In this document: in pieces, positions 9,797 through 55,858 of the stretch
Numbering within the stretch: the stretch's first letter is position 1
How the letters are laid out: each line of letters opens with the position of its first letter
Program-made: the position numbers and the translations under genes
Source: Serratia marcescens
GTDB lineage: Bacteria; Pseudomonadota; Gammaproteobacteria; Enterobacterales; Enterobacteriaceae
Direction of reading: 5' to 3'
Length of the DNA stretch: 64,000 nucleotides
Assembly: GCF_029846115.1 (NCBI RefSeq)
Contig: NZ_JARVZZ010000001.1
Span: 4,340,001-4,404,000, forward strand
Notes under the pieces: generated by a model
Seen by the model: only the letters and a program-made list of their open reading frames with translations
Database searches by the model: none
Told to the model about the DNA's origin: nothing

Positions 9797-10562
9797 TAAT
9801 GCTGGTCAGTTAGCGTTTTTATGCAGGCTTTCGTGAAATTTTCGGTCGATAAAAGTGAGATGCCCCAGGTGGCTCACGCACCTCGACCGAGCCAGAGGCC
9901 GAAGGCGCGGCCCCTGGCAACCCGCGCCTTTGCCCTGTCAGACGGTTGGCTTTGCCAACGTTACTCAGCCCATCCCTGGGCCTCGCCCCTTCGGGGCCGC
10001 TGCAAGCAGCGTTCAAATCTGCTCCAGGCAGATTTGTCCTCTCTCCGCCATACCGCATTGAGGCCGGTTGCGACAGGCGTCCCTGCCTGTCTCACCTGAA
10101 ACCGCCGTCCATGGCGGTTTCGCCTAATGCGCTATGCCTGCGTTCGGCGTCTTCGAGGGCACCCAACACCGTGCTCATCTCCAACTTCTCTACCACAACC
10201 TCATAAGCGACAGATTTCCCGGTAGCTGCCCGCACGGGTGTTGACCTTTGGCGCGCATCACCGGCTGCCGAGCAAGACAGCGTTGTCAGGGGCAACCGGC
10301 CAGGGAAGGCCGGTTGAGGCGAGACTAACAGGGATGTTTGTCGCAGCCGACCCGCCCGACAATGCAGACGCGGCGAGGGTATCCGCACAGCGGACAGTCG
10401 GTGTTAAGCGAAGGCGCGGGTGGAGGGGCCGTGCCTTCGGCCCCTCCAATTGCCGTTCATTGTGGTAACAGAGAAATTCGGGGCATTTACGGCAATTCCC
10501 CTGCACAGAACGCCCAGAGGCTGGATAAAAAAATGCCACTCGGGCTTAAGTGAGCGGCATTA
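9797..10562. mobile_element. MIC-like 766-bp repeat element, copy 1
   Basis: This stretch is the same length as, and nearly identical over most of its interior to, 28144-28909. The left end reads TAATGCTGGTCAGTTAGC and the right end, read inward, TAATGCCGCTCACTTAAG. These are imperfect inverted repeats close to the ends of IS4/IS231-group elements (IS4 end from memory: TAATGCCGATCAGTTAAG). No transposase is encoded. The interior is rich in perfect hairpins, for example CAAATCTGC/GCAGATTTG, GAAACCGCC/GGCGGTTTC and CAACCGGCC/GGCCGGTTG. A 98-codon GTG-started frame on the minus strand (10092-10388) stays open in both copies, but I cannot show it is translated. No target duplication flanks this copy, unlike copy 2. 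Confidence 0.7.
10527..10561 (-). terminator. Terminator formed by the right end of repeat copy 1
   Basis: On the minus strand AATGCC-CTC pairs with GAG-GGCATT (one internal mismatch) and is followed by seven T's. It lies 26 bp beyond the stop of the leftward ATPase gene, so the element end doubles as that operon's terminator. The matching end of copy 2 folds the same way with G-U pairs. Confidence 0.65.
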
Positions 10563-10587
10563 TGTGAAAAAGAAACTTTTTCTTGGA

Positions 10588-11376
10588 TTAAATCGTCGGC
10601 TGGTTCACCAGACCGTCTATCAGCACCTGCGGCGTGCCCTGCGAGCAGCGTTCGATACGCCCGCGCACGCCGTAGACCCGCGCCAGGCTCTGTGGCGTAA
10701 TCACCTGATCCGGCGCACCGTCGGCGATCAGATCGCCATCCTGCAGCATCAGCACGTGGTCGCCGTGACGCAGCGCGATGTTGATGTCATGCACCACCAC
10801 CACCGTCACGATATTGCGCTTGCGGGTTTCGCGGCGCACCAAATCCATCACGTGGAACTGGTAGTTAAGATCGAGCGCGCTCAGCGGCTCATCCAGCAAC
10901 AGCAGCGAGGGCTGACGGATCAGCGACTGCGCCAATCCCACCAACTGTTTCTGGCCGCCGGACAGCTGATCGAGATAGCTCAGCGCCAGGTGGGCGATGC
11001 CCAGTTGCTCCAGCAAGGCCATCACTTCGGCTTCGCTGCCGGCGTTGCTGCGGCCGCCCGAGGCGCGCTGCGCCACGATGATCGACTCCAGCACGTGCAG
11101 ATGCACCCCGGCGGGCAGCGACTGCGGCAGGTACACCACTTTCTCCGCCCGACGGGCGAACGGCATCTGCATCAGATCGCCGTCGTCCAGCCACAGCTTG
11201 CCCTGCGCCGGGTTCAGCCCGGCCAGCGAGCGCAGCAGCGTCGATTTTCCGCTGCCGTTCGGCCCCAGCAGCACGGTGATTTGCCCGCGCGGCAGCATCG
11301 GCACCGAGAGATCGTCGATCACCTGGCGCTTCGGGTAGCCCGCCGAGAAGTGTTCTATTCGCAAGCCCTGACTCAT
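10588..11376 (-). CDS. Iron-siderophore ABC importer, ATPase
   Basis: The 262-residue FecE/FepC-type ATPase has Walker A GPNGSGKST (about residue 37), signature LSGGQKQLVGLAQSL, Walker B LLLLDEPLSALD and the switch histidine in VVHDINIA. It would energise ferric-siderophore import. Its start overlaps the stop of the permease gene by 4 bp (ATGA), so the two form one operon read leftward. It converges on the lipoprotein binding-protein gene, with repeat copy 1 between them. Confidence 0.9.
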   Translation of the reverse strand: MSQGLRIEHFSAGYPKRQVIDDLSVPMLPRGQITVLLGPNGSGKSTLLRSLAGLNPAQGKLWLDDGDLMQMPFARRAEKVVYLPQSLPAGVHLHVLESIIVAQRASGGRSNAGSEAEVMALLEQLGIAHLALSYLDQLSGGQKQLVGLAQSLIRQPSLLLLDEPLSALDLNYQFHVMDLVRRETRKRNIVTVVVVHDINIALRHGDHVLMLQDGDLIADGAPDQVITPQSLARVYGVRGRIERCSQGTPQVLIDGLVNQPTI

Positions 11377-25640: not shown

Positions 25641-28115
25641 ATGAGCAACCAACAACCGTTAACAATGAGCCGCCGCCGCTTCCTGACCGGCGCCGCCGCG
25701 CTGGCCGCTGCCCCGCTGCTGGCAGGCTTATGGCCCAAAGCGGCGCTGGCGCAGGCCATCAGCGAAGCGCTGCCGCAGTTCATCGCCTTGCGTCAGGCGC
25801 AAAAAGGCATCCTGACCGGCGCCCACTGGGGCGCGTTCGAGGCCATCGTGCAGGACGGCAAGATGGTCGGCGTGCAGCCGGTGCAGGACGATCCGTACCC
25901 CAATGAGCTGATCACCATGGCGCCTTATCAGGTGCACGCCGAGAACCGCATCAAATACCCGATGGTGCGTAAAAGCTGGCTGGAGGGCGGCCCCGGCAGC
26001 CGCACCGAGCTGCGCGGCCGCGACGAGTGGGTGCGCGTCAGCTGGGACAAAGCGACCGAGCTGGTGTGCAATGAGATCGTTCGCCTGCAAAAAGATCACG
26101 GGCCGCAGTCGATCTACGCCGGTTCCTACGGCTGGAAAAGCGTCGGCATGCTGCACAACAGCCGCACGCTCCTGCAGCGCCTGATGAACCTGACCGGCGG
26201 TTTCCTCGGCTACGCCGGCGACTACTCCACCGGCGCGGCGCAGGTGATCATGTCGCACGTGGTCGGTTCGATGGAGGTCTACGAACAGCAGACCGCCTGG
26301 CCAAACGTGATCGAGAACAGCGAGCTGGTGATCCTGTGGGGCTGCAACCCGATGGTCACGCTGAAAAACAGCTGGAACGTGCCGGATCACGTCGGCCAGA
26401 CCGGCTTTGAGGCGTTGAAGAAGAAAGGCACCCGGGTGATCAGCATCGATCCGGTGCACAGCGACAGCGCCAAGTTCGTCAATGCGCAGTGGATCGCCCC
26501 GCGTCCTTATACCGACGGCGCCATGCTGATCGGCATCGCCCATACGCTGCTGACCGAGAAGCTGCATAACCCGGACTTCCTGAAAACCTACACCGTCGGC
26601 TTCGACAAGTTCCAGGCCTACCTGCTGGGCGAGCGCGACGGCGTGGCGAAAACCGCCGAATGGGCGGCCGACATCAGCGGCGTCGATGCCGACACGCTGC
26701 GCGCACTGGCGCGCGAGATGGCGAAGCATCGCACCATGATCATGGGCGGCTGGGGCATTCAGCGCCAGCACCACGGCGAACAGCAGCACTGGCTGCTGGT
26801 GACGGTGGCGGCGATGCTCGGCCAGATCGGCCTGCCGGGCGGCGGCTTCGGCTTCAGCTACCACTATTCCTCCGGCGGCAGCCCGACCGCCAAGGGCGGC
26901 ATCATCGCCGGCATCTCCGCCGGCAACGCGCCGAAGAACTCGCCGGCGCCGATCCCGGTGGCGCGCATCGCCGAATGCCTGAGCAACCCGGGAAAAACCA
27001 TCGACTTCAACGGCGCCAAGGTCACCTACCCCGAGGTGAAAATGGTGTATGTGGCGGGCGGCAACACCTTCCACCAGCATCAGGACACCAATAACCTGGT
27101 CAAAGCCTGGCAGCGGCCGGACACCATCGTGGTCAACGAGCCTTACTGGACTGCCACCGCCAAGCATGCCGATATCGTGCTGCCGGCCACCACCAGCTAC
27201 GAGCGCAACGATCTGGAAATGGGCGGCGACTATTCGCAGCTCTACGTGTTCCCGATGCACCAATGCGTGCCGCCGCAGCACGAGTCGCGCAGCGACTTCG
27301 ACATCTTCTCGGCGATGGCGGCCAGACTGGGCGTGCAGGAAGCCTTTACCGAAGGCAAGGACGAAACCCAGTGGCTGAAAGGCATGTACGACGACATGAA
27401 GAACCAGGCGCGCGCGGCCCGGGTGGCGCTGCCGCCGTTCGACATGTTCTGGCAATCCAACAACTACGTGCGCTTCCCGGTGCCGGAGGCCAACAAGCAG
27501 TGGGTGCGCTTCGCCGACTATCGCGACAACCCGCTGCTGAACCCGCTGGGCACGCCGTCGGGCAAGATCGAGATCTACTCCGACGCCATCGCCAAAATGC
27601 ATTATGAGGATTGCCCCGGCATCCCGACCTGGATGCCACCGCACGAGTGGTATCGCGGGCCGGAAGCGGCCAAATATCCGCTGTCGCTCAATACCGCGCA
27701 CCCGACCAACCGGCTGCACTCCCAGCTCGACAACACGCCGCTGCGCGAGAAATACGCGGTGGCGGATCGTGAAGCGATCCTGATCCACCCGCAGGACGCG
27801 CAGCCGCGCGGCATCAGCGGCGGCGATCTGGTGCGGGCGTTCAACGATCGTGGCCAGATCCTGGTGGGCGCGGTGGTCAGCGAAGACGTGCGGCCCGGCG
27901 TGGTGCGCATCAGCGAAGGCGCCTGGTTCGATCCGGCCGATCCGGCGCAGCCCGGCTCGCTGTGCAAGAACGGCAACGTCAACTGCCTGACCTTCGACAT
28001 CGGCTCTTCCAGCCTGGCGCAGGGCAACTGCGGGCAGATGGCGCAGTTGCAGATCGAGAAGTATCGGGGGCCGGTATTGAAAAATACCGCGCACACGGTG
28101 CCGCAAGGCGCCTGA
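25641..28115 (+). CDS. torA: Molybdopterin TMAO/S-oxide reductase, TorA/TorZ type
   Basis: The 824-residue periplasmic enzyme would reduce trimethylamine N-oxide or related N- and S-oxides as a terminal acceptor. The N terminus is a Tat signal (MSRRRFLTG, about residues 9-17). The molybdenum-ligand serine lies in GDYSTGAAQVI, as in the DMSO/TMAO reductase family. Segments such as AGSYGWKSVGMLHNSRTLLQ and KYAVADREAILIHPQDA look closer to E. coli TorZ than to TorA (from memory), so substrate range may be broad. The partner cytochrome gene lies 13 bp upstream. No torD chaperone gene follows; the repeat element begins 28 bp after the stop. Confidence 0.92.
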   Translation: MSNQQPLTMSRRRFLTGAAALAAAPLLAGLWPKAALAQAISEALPQFIALRQAQKGILTGAHWGAFEAIVQDGKMVGVQPVQDDPYPNELITMAPYQVHAENRIKYPMVRKSWLEGGPGSRTELRGRDEWVRVSWDKATELVCNEIVRLQKDHGPQSIYAGSYGWKSVGMLHNSRTLLQRLMNLTGGFLGYAGDYSTGAAQVIMSHVVGSMEVYEQQTAWPNVIENSELVILWGCNPMVTLKNSWNVPDHVGQTGFEALKKKGTRVISIDPVHSDSAKFVNAQWIAPRPYTDGAMLIGIAHTLLTEKLHNPDFLKTYTVGFDKFQAYLLGERDGVAKTAEWAADISGVDADTLRALAREMAKHRTMIMGGWGIQRQHHGEQQHWLLVTVAAMLGQIGLPGGGFGFSYHYSSGGSPTAKGGIIAGISAGNAPKNSPAPIPVARIAECLSNPGKTIDFNGAKVTYPEVKMVYVAGGNTFHQHQDTNNLVKAWQRPDTIVVNEPYWTATAKHADIVLPATTSYERNDLEMGGDYSQLYVFPMHQCVPPQHESRSDFDIFSAMAARLGVQEAFTEGKDETQWLKGMYDDMKNQARAARVALPPFDMFWQSNNYVRFPVPEANKQWVRFADYRDNPLLNPLGTPSGKIEIYSDAIAKMHYEDCPGIPTWMPPHEWYRGPEAAKYPLSLNTAHPTNRLHSQLDNTPLREKYAVADREAILIHPQDAQPRGISGGDLVRAFNDRGQILVGAVVSEDVRPGVVRISEGAWFDPADPAQPGSLCKNGNVNCLTFDIGSSSLAQGNCGQMAQLQIEKYRGPVLKNTAHTVPQGA

Positions 28116-28132
28116 TTTACCCGCAAGCAAGG

Positions 28133-28143
28133 GGCGTAACGCG
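28133..28143. repeat. Left target-site duplication of repeat copy 2
   Basis: GGCGTAACGCG directly abuts the left end of copy 2 and recurs with one mismatch directly after its right end. An 11-bp duplication is in the range known for IS4-group transposition. Confidence 0.65.
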
Positions 28144-28909
28144 TAATGCTGGTCAGTTAGCGTTTTTCTGAACGTATTTGTGCAGTTTTCGGTCGATAAA
28201 GGTGAGATGCGCCATGAGGCTCATACGCCTCGACCGAGCCAGGGGCCGAAGGCGCGGCCCCTGGCAACCCGCGCCTTTGCCCTATCAGACGGTTGGCTTT
28301 GCCAACGTTACTCAGCCCATCCCTGGGCCTCGCCCCTTCGGGGCCGCTGCAAGCAGCGTTCAAATCTGCTCCAGGCAGATTTGTCCTCTCTCCGCCATAC
28401 CGCATTGAGGCCGGTTGCGACAGGCGTCCCTGCCTGTCTCACCTGAAACCGCCGTCCATGGCGGTTTCTCCTAATGCGCTATGCCTGCGTTCGGCGTCTT
28501 CAAGGGCGTCCAACCCTGTGTTCATCTCCGACTTCTCTGCCATAACGTCATAAAGAACAGGTTGCCCGGTAGCTGCCAGCACGGGTGTTGACCTTTGGCG
28601 CGCATCACCGGCTGCCGAGCAAGACGGCGTTGTCAGGGGCAACCGGCCAGGGAAGGCCGGTTGAGGCGAGACTAACAGGGACGTTTGTCGCAGCCGACCC
28701 GCCCGACAATGCAGACGCGGCGAGGGTATCCGCACAGCGGACAGACGGTGTTAAGCGAAGGCGCGGGTGGAGGGGCCGCGCCTTCGGCCCCTCCAATTGC
28801 CGTTCATTGTAGTAACAGAGAAATTCTGGGCATTTAGGGCAATTCATCCTGCACGACACGTAAAGAGACTGGATAAAAAATACCAGTCAGGTTCAAGTGA
28901 CCAGCATTA
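28144..28909. mobile_element. MIC-like 766-bp repeat element, copy 2
   Basis: This is the second copy of the repeat at 9797-10562, same orientation and same length. The ends are near-perfect inverted repeats: TAATGCTGGTCAGTT on the left and, read inward, TAATGCTGGTCACTT on the right (14 of 15). It is bounded by the 11-bp duplication GGCG(T/C)AACGCG. Removing the element and one duplicate restores GGGGCG-TAACG-CGCCCC-TTTTTT, a good terminator for the upstream reductase gene. The interior carries the same hairpins as copy 1, plus a perfect 10-bp stem CCAGGGGCCG/CGGCCCCTGG. It has no transposase; the minus-strand 98-codon frame (28439-28735) is intact here too. Confidence 0.78.
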
Positions 28910-28920
28910 GGCGCAACGCG
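28910..28920. repeat. Right target-site duplication of repeat copy 2
   Basis: GGCGCAACGCG matches the left flank at 10 of 11 bases. It is followed by CCCCTTTTTT, the second half of the interrupted terminator. Confidence 0.65.
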
Positions 28921-28979
28921 CCCCTTTTTTCTCGTCGCCGTGCGACATATCCGTTTACCCTTCGCCGCAAGGGAGCGGT

Positions 28980-29007
28980 TTGCGTTTCATTTCAACGGGC
29001 GTATGAT
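28980..29007 (+). promoter_or_regulatory. Candidate setB promoter
   Basis: TTGCGT and TATGAT are separated by 16 bp, about 40 bp upstream of the setB start, the only good hexamer pair in this gap. Confidence 0.5.
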
Positions 29008-29045
29008 GCGCGCGACCTTCCTTTTTCGACGAATTCTCAACCACC

Positions 29046-30221
29046 ATGCCGACTTCATCCGCAGTAACGCGACGCACGCCCGATCTCACTTCGCTGGCCT
29101 TTTTGGCGGTGGCGTTCCTGACCGGCATCGCCGGCGCCCTGCAAACCCCGACGCTGAGCCTGTTTCTGGAAACCGAGGTCAAGGTACGGCCGGCGCTGGT
29201 CGGGCTGTTCTTTACCGGCAGCGCGGTGATTGGCATTCTGGTCAGCCAGTTTCTCGCCGGCCGTTCGGATAAACAAGGCGACCGCAAGTCACTTATTTTC
29301 CTCTGCTGCATGCTGGGTGCGCTGGGGTTCACGCTGTTCGCCTGGAACCGCGACTATTACCTGCTGCTGATCGTCGGCGTGGTGCTCACCAGCTTCGGCT
29401 CCACCGCCAACCCGCAGATGTTTGCGCTGGCGCGTGAGCATGCCGACCGTACCGGCCGCGAGGCGGTGATGTTCACCTCCATCATGCGCGCCCAGGTCTC
29501 CCTGGCCTGGGTCATTGGCCCGCCGATCGCCTTCGCGCTGGCGCTGGGCTTCGGCTTTAAGGTCATGTATCTGGCGGGCGCGGCGGCCTTTGTGCTGTGC
29601 GGCCTGCTGGTGTGGAAACGGCTGCCCTCGATGCCGAAAACCGCGGCGACGAACGCGCCCCTGGCCGCACCGCGGCAGCACCGCCGCGATTCGCTGCTGC
29701 TGTTCGTCGCCTGCACCCTGATGTGGACCGCCAACAGCATGTACCTGATCAACATGCCGCTGTATGTGGTGCACGAGCTGCGGCTGCCGGAGCGGCTGGC
29801 CGGGATATTGATGGGCGCCGCCGCCGGGCTGGAGATCCCGATCATGCTGCTCGCCGGCCTGGCGGCGAAGCGCTGCGGCAAACGCCGCCTGATGCGCGGG
29901 GCAGTGGTCGCCGGCGTGCTGTTCTACTGCGGCCTGCTGTTTATCACCGGCAGCTGGCAGCTCATCGCCCTGCAGCTGCTGAATGCGGCGTTTATCGGCG
30001 TGCTGGCGGGGATCGGCATGCTCTACTTCCAGGATTTGATGCCCGGCCAGGCCGGCGCGGCCACCACGCTGTTCACCAACACCACCCGGGTGGGCTGGAT
30101 CATCGCCGGCTCGATCGCCGGTGCGGTAGCGGAAATCTGGAACTACCATGCGGTGTTTTACGCCGCGCTCGCGATGACGGTGGGAGCCACGCTGTGCCTG
30201 TGGCGGTTGAAAGACGCTTAG
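29046..30221 (+). CDS. setB: Sugar efflux transporter SetB
   Basis: The 391-residue, 12-helix MFS exporter belongs to the SET family, which expels sugars such as lactose and glucose analogues. It is close to E. coli SetB throughout: [55 protein letters not shown] and [20 protein letters not shown]. In E. coli setB also sits next to fruBKA and yeiW; here the Nudix gene, the tor pair and repeat copy 2 have come between. There is no clear Shine-Dalgarno; the start follows the alignment. Confidence 0.93.
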
Positions 30222-45141: not shown

Positions 45142-46752
45142 ATGGCCACTCCTTTGCTCGCTATTCAGGATCTCAGCATTGCCTTCCGTCAGGGCGACAC
45201 CGTCACGCCGGTGGTCAACGAACTCTCGCTGCAAATCGCGCCGGCGGAAACGCTGGCGCTGGTAGGGGAATCCGGCTCCGGCAAAAGCGTCACCGCCCTG
45301 TCGATACTGCGCCTGCTGCCCGCGCCGCCGGTGGTTTACCCTGCCGGCGATATCCTGTTCAACGGCGACTCGTTGCTGCATGCGCCGGAAGCGGCGCTGC
45401 GCAAGGTGCGCGGCAATCAGATCGCGATGATCTTTCAGGAACCGATGGTGTCGCTTAACCCGCTGCACACCATCGAAAAACAGCTCGCAGAAGTGCTGAT
45501 GCTGCACCGCGGCCTGCGGCGCGAAGCCGCGCGTGCAGAGATCGTCGAATGCCTGGAGCGCGTCGGCATCCGTCAGGCCAAAAGCCGGCTGCAGGATTAC
45601 CCGCATCAGCTGTCCGGCGGCGAACGCCAGCGGGTAATGATCGCCATGGCGGTGTTGACCCGTCCGAAACTGCTGATCGCCGACGAGCCCACCACCGCGC
45701 TCGATGTCACTATCCAGGCGCAGATCCTGACGCTGCTGCAAGAATTGAAACAAGAGATGGACATGGGTCTGTTGTTCATCACCCATAACCTGAATATCGT
45801 GCGCCGCCTGGCGGACAACGTGGCGGTGATGCGCCAAGGGCGCTGCGTGGAGCAAAACGGCCGCGCGCAGCTGTTCAGCCGGCCGCAGCATCCCTACACG
45901 CAGCAGTTGCTGGCCGCCGAGGACGTCGGTGAACCGCTGCCGCTGCCTGCCGCCGCCAACGAGCGCCCCGGCGACGAGCGGCCGCTGCTCAAGGTGGAGA
46001 ATCTGCAGGTGCGCTTCCCCATTCGCCGCGGCCTGCTGCGCCGCACGGTGGATTATCACTATGCATTGAAATCATTGAGTTTCGAGCTGCGCGCCGGGGA
46101 AAGCGTGGGGCTGGTGGGGGAATCCGGCTCGGGAAAAAGCACCACCGGGCTGGCGCTGCTGCGCCTGTTGGCCTCACAAGGCGCCATCTGGTTCGACGGC
46201 GAACCGCTGCACCCGCTCACAATGAAGCAGATGCTGCCCTACCGCAGCCGGATGCAAATCGTCTTCCAGGATCCCTATTCCGCCCTGAACCCGCGCCTGA
46301 ACGTGCAGCAGATCATCGCCGAGGGGCTGGAAGTGCACCAGCGGCTTAGCGCCGAGCAGCGGGAACAGCGCGTGATCGAGGTATTGCAGGAAGTCGGCCT
46401 GGATCCGCAACTGCGCCATCGCTACCCCACCGAATTTTCCGGCGGGCAGCGCCAGCGTATCGCCATCGCGCGCGCGCTGATCCTGCAGCCGCAGCTGCTG
46501 ATCCTCGACGAGCCGACCTCTTCGCTGGATAAATCGGTGCAGGCGCAGATCCTGACGCTGCTGAAATCGCTGCAGCAACGTCACCGGTTGGCTTATCTGT
46601 TCATCAGCCATGACCTGCAGGTGGTGCGTTCGCTATGCCACCAGGTCATCGTGTTGCGACAGGGAGAAGTGGTTGAACAGGGAGACTGCCGGGCGATTTT
46701 CGCGGCGCCCGCCGCCGACTATACCCGTCAACTGCTGCAGTTGGCGGATTAG
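45142..46752 (+). CDS. yejF: Peptide ABC importer, duplicated ATPase YejF
   Basis: The 536-residue ATPase contains two DppD/DppF-like halves. Half 1 has Walker [11 protein letters not shown] and signature [15 protein letters not shown]; half 2 has [11 protein letters not shown] and [15 protein letters not shown]. Each has an intact Walker B ([12 protein letters not shown] and [12 protein letters not shown]). The start at 45142 directly follows the yejE stop and is preferred to an upstream in-frame ATG inside yejE. Confidence 0.95.
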
Positions 46753-55574: not shown

Positions 55575-55651
55575 CGGCATGTAGCGCAGCCTGGTAGCGC
55601 ACCGTCATGGGGTGTCGGGGGTCGGAGGTTCGAATCCTCTCATGCCGACCA
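55575..55651 (+). tRNA. proL: tRNA-Pro (anticodon GGG)
   Basis: A 77-nt cloverleaf with encoded CCA matches the E. coli proL tRNA almost exactly: D arm GCGCAGCCTGGTAGCGC, anticodon loop ATGGGGT, T arm GGAGGTTCGAATCCTC. The pairing acceptor ends are CGGCATG and CATGCCG. Confidence 0.97.
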
Positions 55652-55694
55652 AATTCAAGAAAACCTGCTGTAACAGCAGGTTTTTTTTCGTCTG
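55633..55694 (+). repeat. 62-bp direct repeat, unit 1 (tRNA-Pro 3' end and terminator)
   Basis: The last 19 bases of the tRNA plus the terminator and six more bases (AATCCTCTCATGCCGACCAA at the start) recur at 55797-55858 with a single mismatch. Confidence 0.85.
55662..55688 (+). terminator. Terminator after tRNA-Pro
   Basis: AACCTGCTG and CAGCAGGTT form a 9-bp stem with a TAA loop and are followed by six more T's. Confidence 0.9.
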
Positions 55695-55858
55695 CACACT
55701 GAGAGAATGAGAATCTCCGAAGGAGGTTTGAGCCGAACGTAGTGAGACCACGTTGCTTTAGCAACGGCCCGCAGGGCAAGCATCGAAGATGCGCATAATC
55801 CTCTCATGCCGACCAAATTCAAGAAAACCTGCTGTTACAGCAGGTTTTTTTTCGTCTG
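55695..55858 (+). ncRNA. RtT-like repeat behind tRNA-Pro
   Basis: A 164-bp unit follows the tRNA and ends with a copy of the tRNA 3' end and its terminator, as do the RtT repeats of the E. coli tyrT operon (family knowledge). Its interior has three adjacent perfect hairpins: CGTTGC-TTTA-GCAACG, GCCC-GCA-GGGC and GCATC-GAA-GATGC. Read-through of the first terminator would give a stable RNA released by tRNA processing. Function is unknown. Confidence 0.55.
55797..55858 (+). repeat. 62-bp direct repeat, unit 2
   Basis: This is the second copy of the tRNA 3' end and terminator, 61 of 62 bases identical to 55633-55694, with a 164-bp period. The loop TAA has become TTA. Confidence 0.85.

Follow-up and report, generated by a model that had tools for sequence, protein, structure and literature searches.

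A terminator-targeting, non-autonomous IS4-subgroup element of Serratia with palindromic hairpin cargo and putative CsrA-binding loops

The element and its locus

The window (the whole stretch of 64,000 nucleotides analysed, from contig NZ_JARVZZ010000001.1 of Serratia marcescens) contains a 766-bp insertion located between a molybdopterin S/N-oxide reductase gene and a gene of the sugar efflux transporter family (Table 1). A preliminary description had considered this insertion as a non-autonomous IS4/IS231-like cassette present in two copies, and its account of the termini is borne out: the 15-bp ends are near-perfect inverted repeats, the 11-bp flanks GGCGTAACGCG and GGCGCAACGCG are identical at 10 bases out of 11, and the deletion of the element together with one flank rebuilds a GC hairpin followed by TTTTTT. 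The termini TAATG...CATTA display the -AATR bases at both ends. The absence of a transposase is likewise confirmed. The element contains seven open reading frames (75-98 aa) with no Pfam match below an E-value of 0.07 and no PHROG match below 0.02, and a protein-coding cargo was rejected for this lack of any family match of note.

Table 1. Position of the features of the element, of its neighbourhood and of the second copy in the window.
Feature	Position	Strand	Remarks
Upstream gene with the split terminator: molybdopterin S/N-oxide reductase (TorA/BisC type)	25641..28115	+	stop 28 bp before the element
Left target duplication	28133..28143	+	
Non-autonomous IS4-subgroup-type element, 766 bp	28144..28909	+	ends, duplication, empty sites, copies
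Left terminal inverted repeat	28144..28158	+	14 of 15 bases agree with the right end
Left GC-rich hairpin	28241..28280	.	inverted copy of 28755-28792; 38-40 bp, 90%
Optional 79-bp four-hairpin module, AaHKsRNA22-like	28307..28385	-	GGA in first and last loop; 37.5 bits, cut-off 39.8
Left double hairpin, loops AUGGAC and AGGGAC	28409..28481	-	pointing outward
Right double hairpin, loops AGGGAA and AGGGAC	28628..28699	+	pointing outward
Right GC-rich hairpin	28755..28792	.	inverted-copy partner of 28241-28280
Right terminal inverted repeat	28895..28909	-	last ~38 bp match autonomous IS4-type right ends
Right target duplication	28910..28920	+	
Remainder of the split terminator: 3' stem CCCC, then TTTTTT	28921..28930	+	unbroken in relatives
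Downstream gene: sugar efflux transporter family	29046..30221	+	below the SetB model cut-off
Second copy, 766 bp	9797..10562	+	92% identical to the 28144 copy; right duplication lost
Left double hairpin of the second copy	10062..10134	-	
Right double hairpin of the second copy	10281..10352	+	

Both 766-bp copies of the window are real, but the genome holds six copies in all, of which three have 766 bp, two (692 and 696 bp) are devoid of the 79-bp internal module and one is a 235-bp remnant without the core; a lone 79-bp module was found once, outside the element copies. The target duplication that had been claimed stands for the copy at 28144, but not for the right side of the copy at 9797. 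To the right of this second copy (10563-10600), an A/T-rich hairpin (GAAAAAG AAA CTTTTTC) replaces the expected 3' half of the terminator; unlike the 9797 copy, the orthologous copies in the genomes G011 and G029 retain a GC terminator. Elsewhere in the window, a tRNA gene followed by an RtT RNA with a 62-nt direct repeat (55575-55858) represents an ordinary feature, and two 129-nt direct repeats with 71% identity (45613-45741 and 46438-46566) are 825 bp apart.

Mobility, target sites and IS4-subgroup relatives

Mobility was studied with a set of 61 copies from 14 Serratia genomes, at 43 distinct sites, for which all the ends were read (60 fetched copies were chosen among the matches listed, and five of 66 copies were dropped for a missing arm). 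Most of these copies have the termini YAATG...CATTR, and a minority in distant genomes is degraded. Duplications of 10-13 bp are present in 40 of the 61 copies and at 29 of the 43 distinct sites, versus 75 of about 5000 mismatched flank pairs that pass the same test as a chance control; 14 sites have no clear duplication. A query made of the joined flanks of the 28144 copy runs contiguously through 20 of 30 genomes of the genus, in which the locus is empty, and the hairpin is uninterrupted in all 11 empty-site junctions that were read directly. Eight groups of copies occupy sites common to several genomes, as a fixed, non-mobile repeat would; such a repeat is scarcely credible beside the duplications and the IS4 ends, and the contiguous empty sites contradict it. 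Core-less remnants also persist, with their ends and in some cases with their duplications; they hold a left-type or a right-type GC hairpin and look like the result of repeated deletions. The element thus combines inverted ends and the lack of a transposase with several copies and empty sites, as is characteristic of a MITE or a mobile insertion cassette, and the mobile-element part of our reading is firm.

At 30 of the 43 sites, reconstruction of the target gives a GC hairpin next to a T or A tract, and 126 out of 3000 random 50-mers drawn from these loci have this structure; when the T tract alone is considered, the values are 21 of 43 sites and 16 of 3000 random 50-mers. The tract is what counts here, because hairpins of any kind are frequent in these flanks (1113 of 3000 random 50-mers). 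In the sites read, the element is inserted where the loop meets the 3' stem, and the duplication covers inner stem, loop and inner stem. The terminator test failed at 13 of the 43 sites, several of which are degraded copies in the genomes G004, G006 and G023. Concerning the gene context, a simple ORF rule (whose distances of 0-2 bp are artefacts) places 26 of the 61 copies between convergent genes, 28 between genes in the same direction and seven between divergent genes.

According to PMC2266710, the IS4 subgroup is characterized by -AATR ends and repeats of 10-13 bp, and IS231 by CAT ends and repeats of 10-12 bp. The affiliation proposed in the preliminary description can be kept for IS4, on the basis of both the ends and the duplication lengths, but not for IS231. 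In a sample of 394 genomes of the order (a scan that scored two candidates per genome and could miss weak core matches), 34 genomes match the element, two of them being Serratia. The non-Serratia matches are confined to positions 651-692, the last 42 bp of the query, in 31 cases out of 32, and to positions 88-133 in the other. Seven of these right ends sit on completely readable insertion sequences of 1391-1435 bp, with the left end TAATGCCGATCAGTTAAG and open frames of 424-466 codons; PF13006 and PF01609 were found in the one autonomous element tested. From 16 autonomous elements, nine originating from the genus member G025 and seven from the order, 15 are flanked by duplications and 14 passed the terminator test. 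Across the whole element family, insertion usually occurs in terminators. Some members of the IS4 subgroup are credited in PMC2266710 with a "spectacular apparent insertion specificity", and the word terminator is absent from the main text of this paper. In the open-licence literature, we recognised no paper naming the element or the insertion of IS4 elements into terminators. We offer here a simple landing rule for the IS4-subgroup elements, namely inside intrinsic terminators.

The cassette had been supposed to be mobilised in trans by an IS4-family transposase, and the right end that it has in common with full-length IS4-type elements agrees with this; however, the left ends differ, and no exact autonomous parent was detected among the IS4-type elements of G025, G002, G020 and the order sample. 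As direct parents, we rejected G025, which has an IS4-type transposase but the left end TAATGCCGATCAG, G002, which also has one but with AACACCGATCGG-type ends, and G020, in which the transposase is decayed and the right end is AGTGACTGGCATTA. Matches to IS4-type transposases are present in five of the 30 genomes of the genus, three of them with fragments only. Because neither PF01609 nor an IS4-type transposase gives any match in the host genome, mobilisation in trans is a step that we infer, and the element may now be stranded in this host. The exact left-end pattern was found in Serratia contigs only (8 stretches).

The hairpin cargo

The core of the element is an imperfect palindrome, each half of which contains two hairpins (about 73 nt in all) on the strand reading outward. 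In the 43 full copies, the double hairpins are among the most conserved parts, with a mean agreement of 0.95-1.00; the GC hairpins (0.93-0.98) and the adjacent parts of the core are about as conserved, and the arms and the centre are more variable. With a model of the hairpin pair, 15 of 30 Serratia genomes gave 101 matches in total; the host genome accounts for 10 of them, one for each half of its five full copies. Among the 101 matches, 88 form 44 neighbour pairs, all oriented outward (44/44), and 13 are single.

Pairing was analysed with 36 of the 37 distinct double-hairpin sequences, taken from both halves. Paired cells represent 97.2% of the total, and this value falls to 16-47% when the partner is slid by 1-3 columns. 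Changes on both sides were observed in 78 cells versus 30 in shuffles, with a covariation score of 0.282 versus 0.117. Neither the pairs with both-side changes (5 versus 4.2) nor the pair types (9 versus 11.4) are more numerous than in shuffles. Four of the five both-side changes reflect a single ancient divergence of the left halves from the right ones, and the fifth (C-G 26, U-A 9) varies among the left halves too. In these 36 sequences, loop 1 has the consensus A-N-GGA, where N is T, G or A and the other positions are invariant, and loop 2 is AGGGA with two exceptions. Local folds present GGA in both loops in 34 cases out of 37. When the whole strand is folded, the two halves pair with each other and only 0-2 ANGGA loops remain on each strand, a weak excess over shuffles (mean 0.03-0.27, maximum 1-2). 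Hairpins acting at the DNA level, like the REP/BIME units that bind gyrase, IHF or the REP-associated transposase, would also be palindromic, intergenic and repeated, and covariation is expected for them too. We regard this explanation as very unlikely, given that the conservation of the loops is strand-specific (GGA, and not its complement, in both halves). The reading of the core as a probable hairpin cassette is well supported by conservation.

The 79-bp module folds into four hairpins. GGA is present in the 5' loop of 21 of 22 module copies; the 3' loop has the form CA-N-GGA in 15 copies and a modified form in three, and the search pattern did not locate it in the other four. Of the 25 modules carried by the 43 full elements, 17 lie in the left half and eight, inverted, in the right half, and the orientation is outward in 25 cases out of 25; three elements carry two modules, one per half. 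The element as query recovered 174 plasmids, 171 of which are from Salmonella, as well as 633 of 5426 E. coli genomes. Among the matches listed (20 of the 174 plasmids, 20 of the 633 E. coli genomes and 6 of 6 phages), all cover the module region, and none covers another part of the element. On one Salmonella plasmid (locus L256, 3001-3087), the module is localized between ybtA and ybtP.

Both hairpin units display similarities with Rfam families. In Rfam, the right half matches TwoAYGGAY (RF01731) best, and this family ranks second for the left part of the element, with scores of 34.1 and 29.2 bits for the two halves, below the cut-off of 43; the module is also below the cut-off of AaHKsRNA22 (RF02902; Table 1). 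The 18 Serratia matches to TwoAYGGAY are all inside element copies, and none in the 30 genomes exceeds the cut-off. In the order, TwoAYGGAY was detected in 85 of 295 genomes (65 above the cut-off), often in several copies (nine candidates were scored per genome), and AaHKsRNA22 in 35 of 295 (16 above the cut-off). Four further genomes from the same family contain nine neighbouring TwoAYGGAY pairs, eight of which are outward. Since both Rfam families match across many genomes of the order, both hairpin units look older and wider than the Serratia IS4 vehicle. A search by pattern at 20 loci revealed no IS4 ends of the Serratia type around the TwoAYGGAY repeats of other genera.

At L257-L272 and L273-L300, TwoAYGGAY is a multi-copy repeat of many genomes of the order, often in outward pairs. 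At L266 (1936-2150, the same site as L251), the inverted stretches GCCGTCAGGGGCA and TGCCCCTGATGGC, with TTAA flanks, enclose one TwoAYGGAY hairpin pair, and this locus looks like a different miniature element. At L278 (genome G267), a short stretch with the IS4-type ends TAATGCCGATCAGTTAAG ... CTTAACTGACAAGCATTA is found near a TwoAYGGAY match.

Proposed function and comparison with known systems

The motif A-N-GGA in a hairpin loop, with a free N, is a CsrA site. A conserved A-N-GGA in hairpin loops is what we observe here, in the sequences and in the local folds, and CsrA is encoded in the host genome. We propose a mobile CsrA-binding cassette because the ANGGA hairpin loops are CsrA-type sites. 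The reading that we prefer, with a probability of roughly 0.6, is that of a non-autonomous IS4-subgroup element which targets terminators and whose palindromic hairpin cargo would be transcribed and would bind CsrA. The CsrA part of this proposal is specific and, judged from sequence, of moderate probability. An IS4-subgroup transposase would have recognised the ends and moved the cassette in trans into terminators. Transcription of the hairpins would then come either from the upstream gene, by read-through past its split terminator, or from a start located within the element or at its centre, and the hairpin loops would bind CsrA or a CsrA-like protein. Because each half points outward, either orientation of insertion would provide the read-through transcript with one sense pair. 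Each copy could act as a small CsrA sponge, or could turn the 3' end of the host mRNA into a CsrA target.

Several observations weigh against this reading: no sigma-70-like promoter was found by consensus in 28000-29100, the halves pair with each other in the whole-strand folds, some remnants retain their ends (and duplications in some cases) without the core, the Rfam scores are below the cut-offs, and comparable conservation is found in other parts of the element. The first three of these also favour a purely selfish miniature element, unrelated to CsrA, in which the hairpins would serve the element itself, for instance as an insulation from passing transcription. This explanation is possible but doubtful, considering that two unrelated hairpin units both have conserved loops in which N is free, and that repeats of other genera, devoid of the Serratia IS4 ends, show the same outward arrangement. 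It is unlikely that an RNA cassette exposes its GGA loops to a partner other than CsrA, or pairs them with another RNA. The conservation of loops and stems would fit equally and GGA also resembles a ribosome-binding site, but a hairpin loop A-N-GGA with a free N is the type recognised by CsrA. PMC4333381 argues, from motif matches, for the binding of CsrA by TwoAYGGAY.

A broader version of the CsrA proposal is put forward tentatively. The hairpin units would be the cargo of dispersed intergenic elements in Enterobacterales, as mobile CsrA-binding RNA cassettes, with an IS4-driven and terminator-seeking vehicle in Serratia; transposition could then spread CsrA sites via 3' ends and alter the global supply of CsrA. 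We suggest that the families TwoAYGGAY and AaHKsRNA22 are largely parts of dispersed repeats. A non-coding cargo is thereby named for bacterial miniature elements, and the titration of a global regulator such as CsrA by mobile repeats becomes directly testable. The view of an IS4 cassette given in the preliminary description is right in outline; the terminator rule and the divergent, conserved hairpin cargo were absent from it.

The MIC231 of Bacillus are mobile insertion cassettes of the IS231 subgroup with a gene cargo between IS231 ends. The Serratia element, previously presented as their enterobacterial equivalent, is similar to them by its IS4-family ends, by the lack of a transposase and by the presence of foreign DNA between the ends; it differs by belonging to the IS4 subgroup and by its non-coding, palindromic hairpin cargo instead of a gene. 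The MIC231 cassettes are cited in the reference list of PMC2266710. With the IS4 subgroup as defined in the same publication, the element has in common the AATG ends, the duplications of 10-13 bp and a right end as in the elements with a 442-aa transposase, whereas it contains no transposase and carries an internal hairpin cargo.

With TwoAYGGAY, as described in PMC2864571 and PMC4333381, the Serratia units share two adjacent hairpins with GGA loops. They differ from it by the absence of the outer 168-nt structure, by the second loop AGGGA, which is unlike AYGGAY, and by their arrangement in outward pairs within an IS4-ended element. The module has the four-hairpin order of AaHKsRNA22 with the GAACG link; the loops shown in the consensus of this family are not GGA, whereas those of the enterobacterial module copies are. 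Finally, PMC1525189 describes insertion sequences that target REP palindromes, one of which (ISRm22) belongs to the IS4 family. Their target is also a hairpin-forming intergenic DNA, but it consists of REP sequences, whereas the target of the Serratia element consists of intrinsic terminators of many unrelated sequences.
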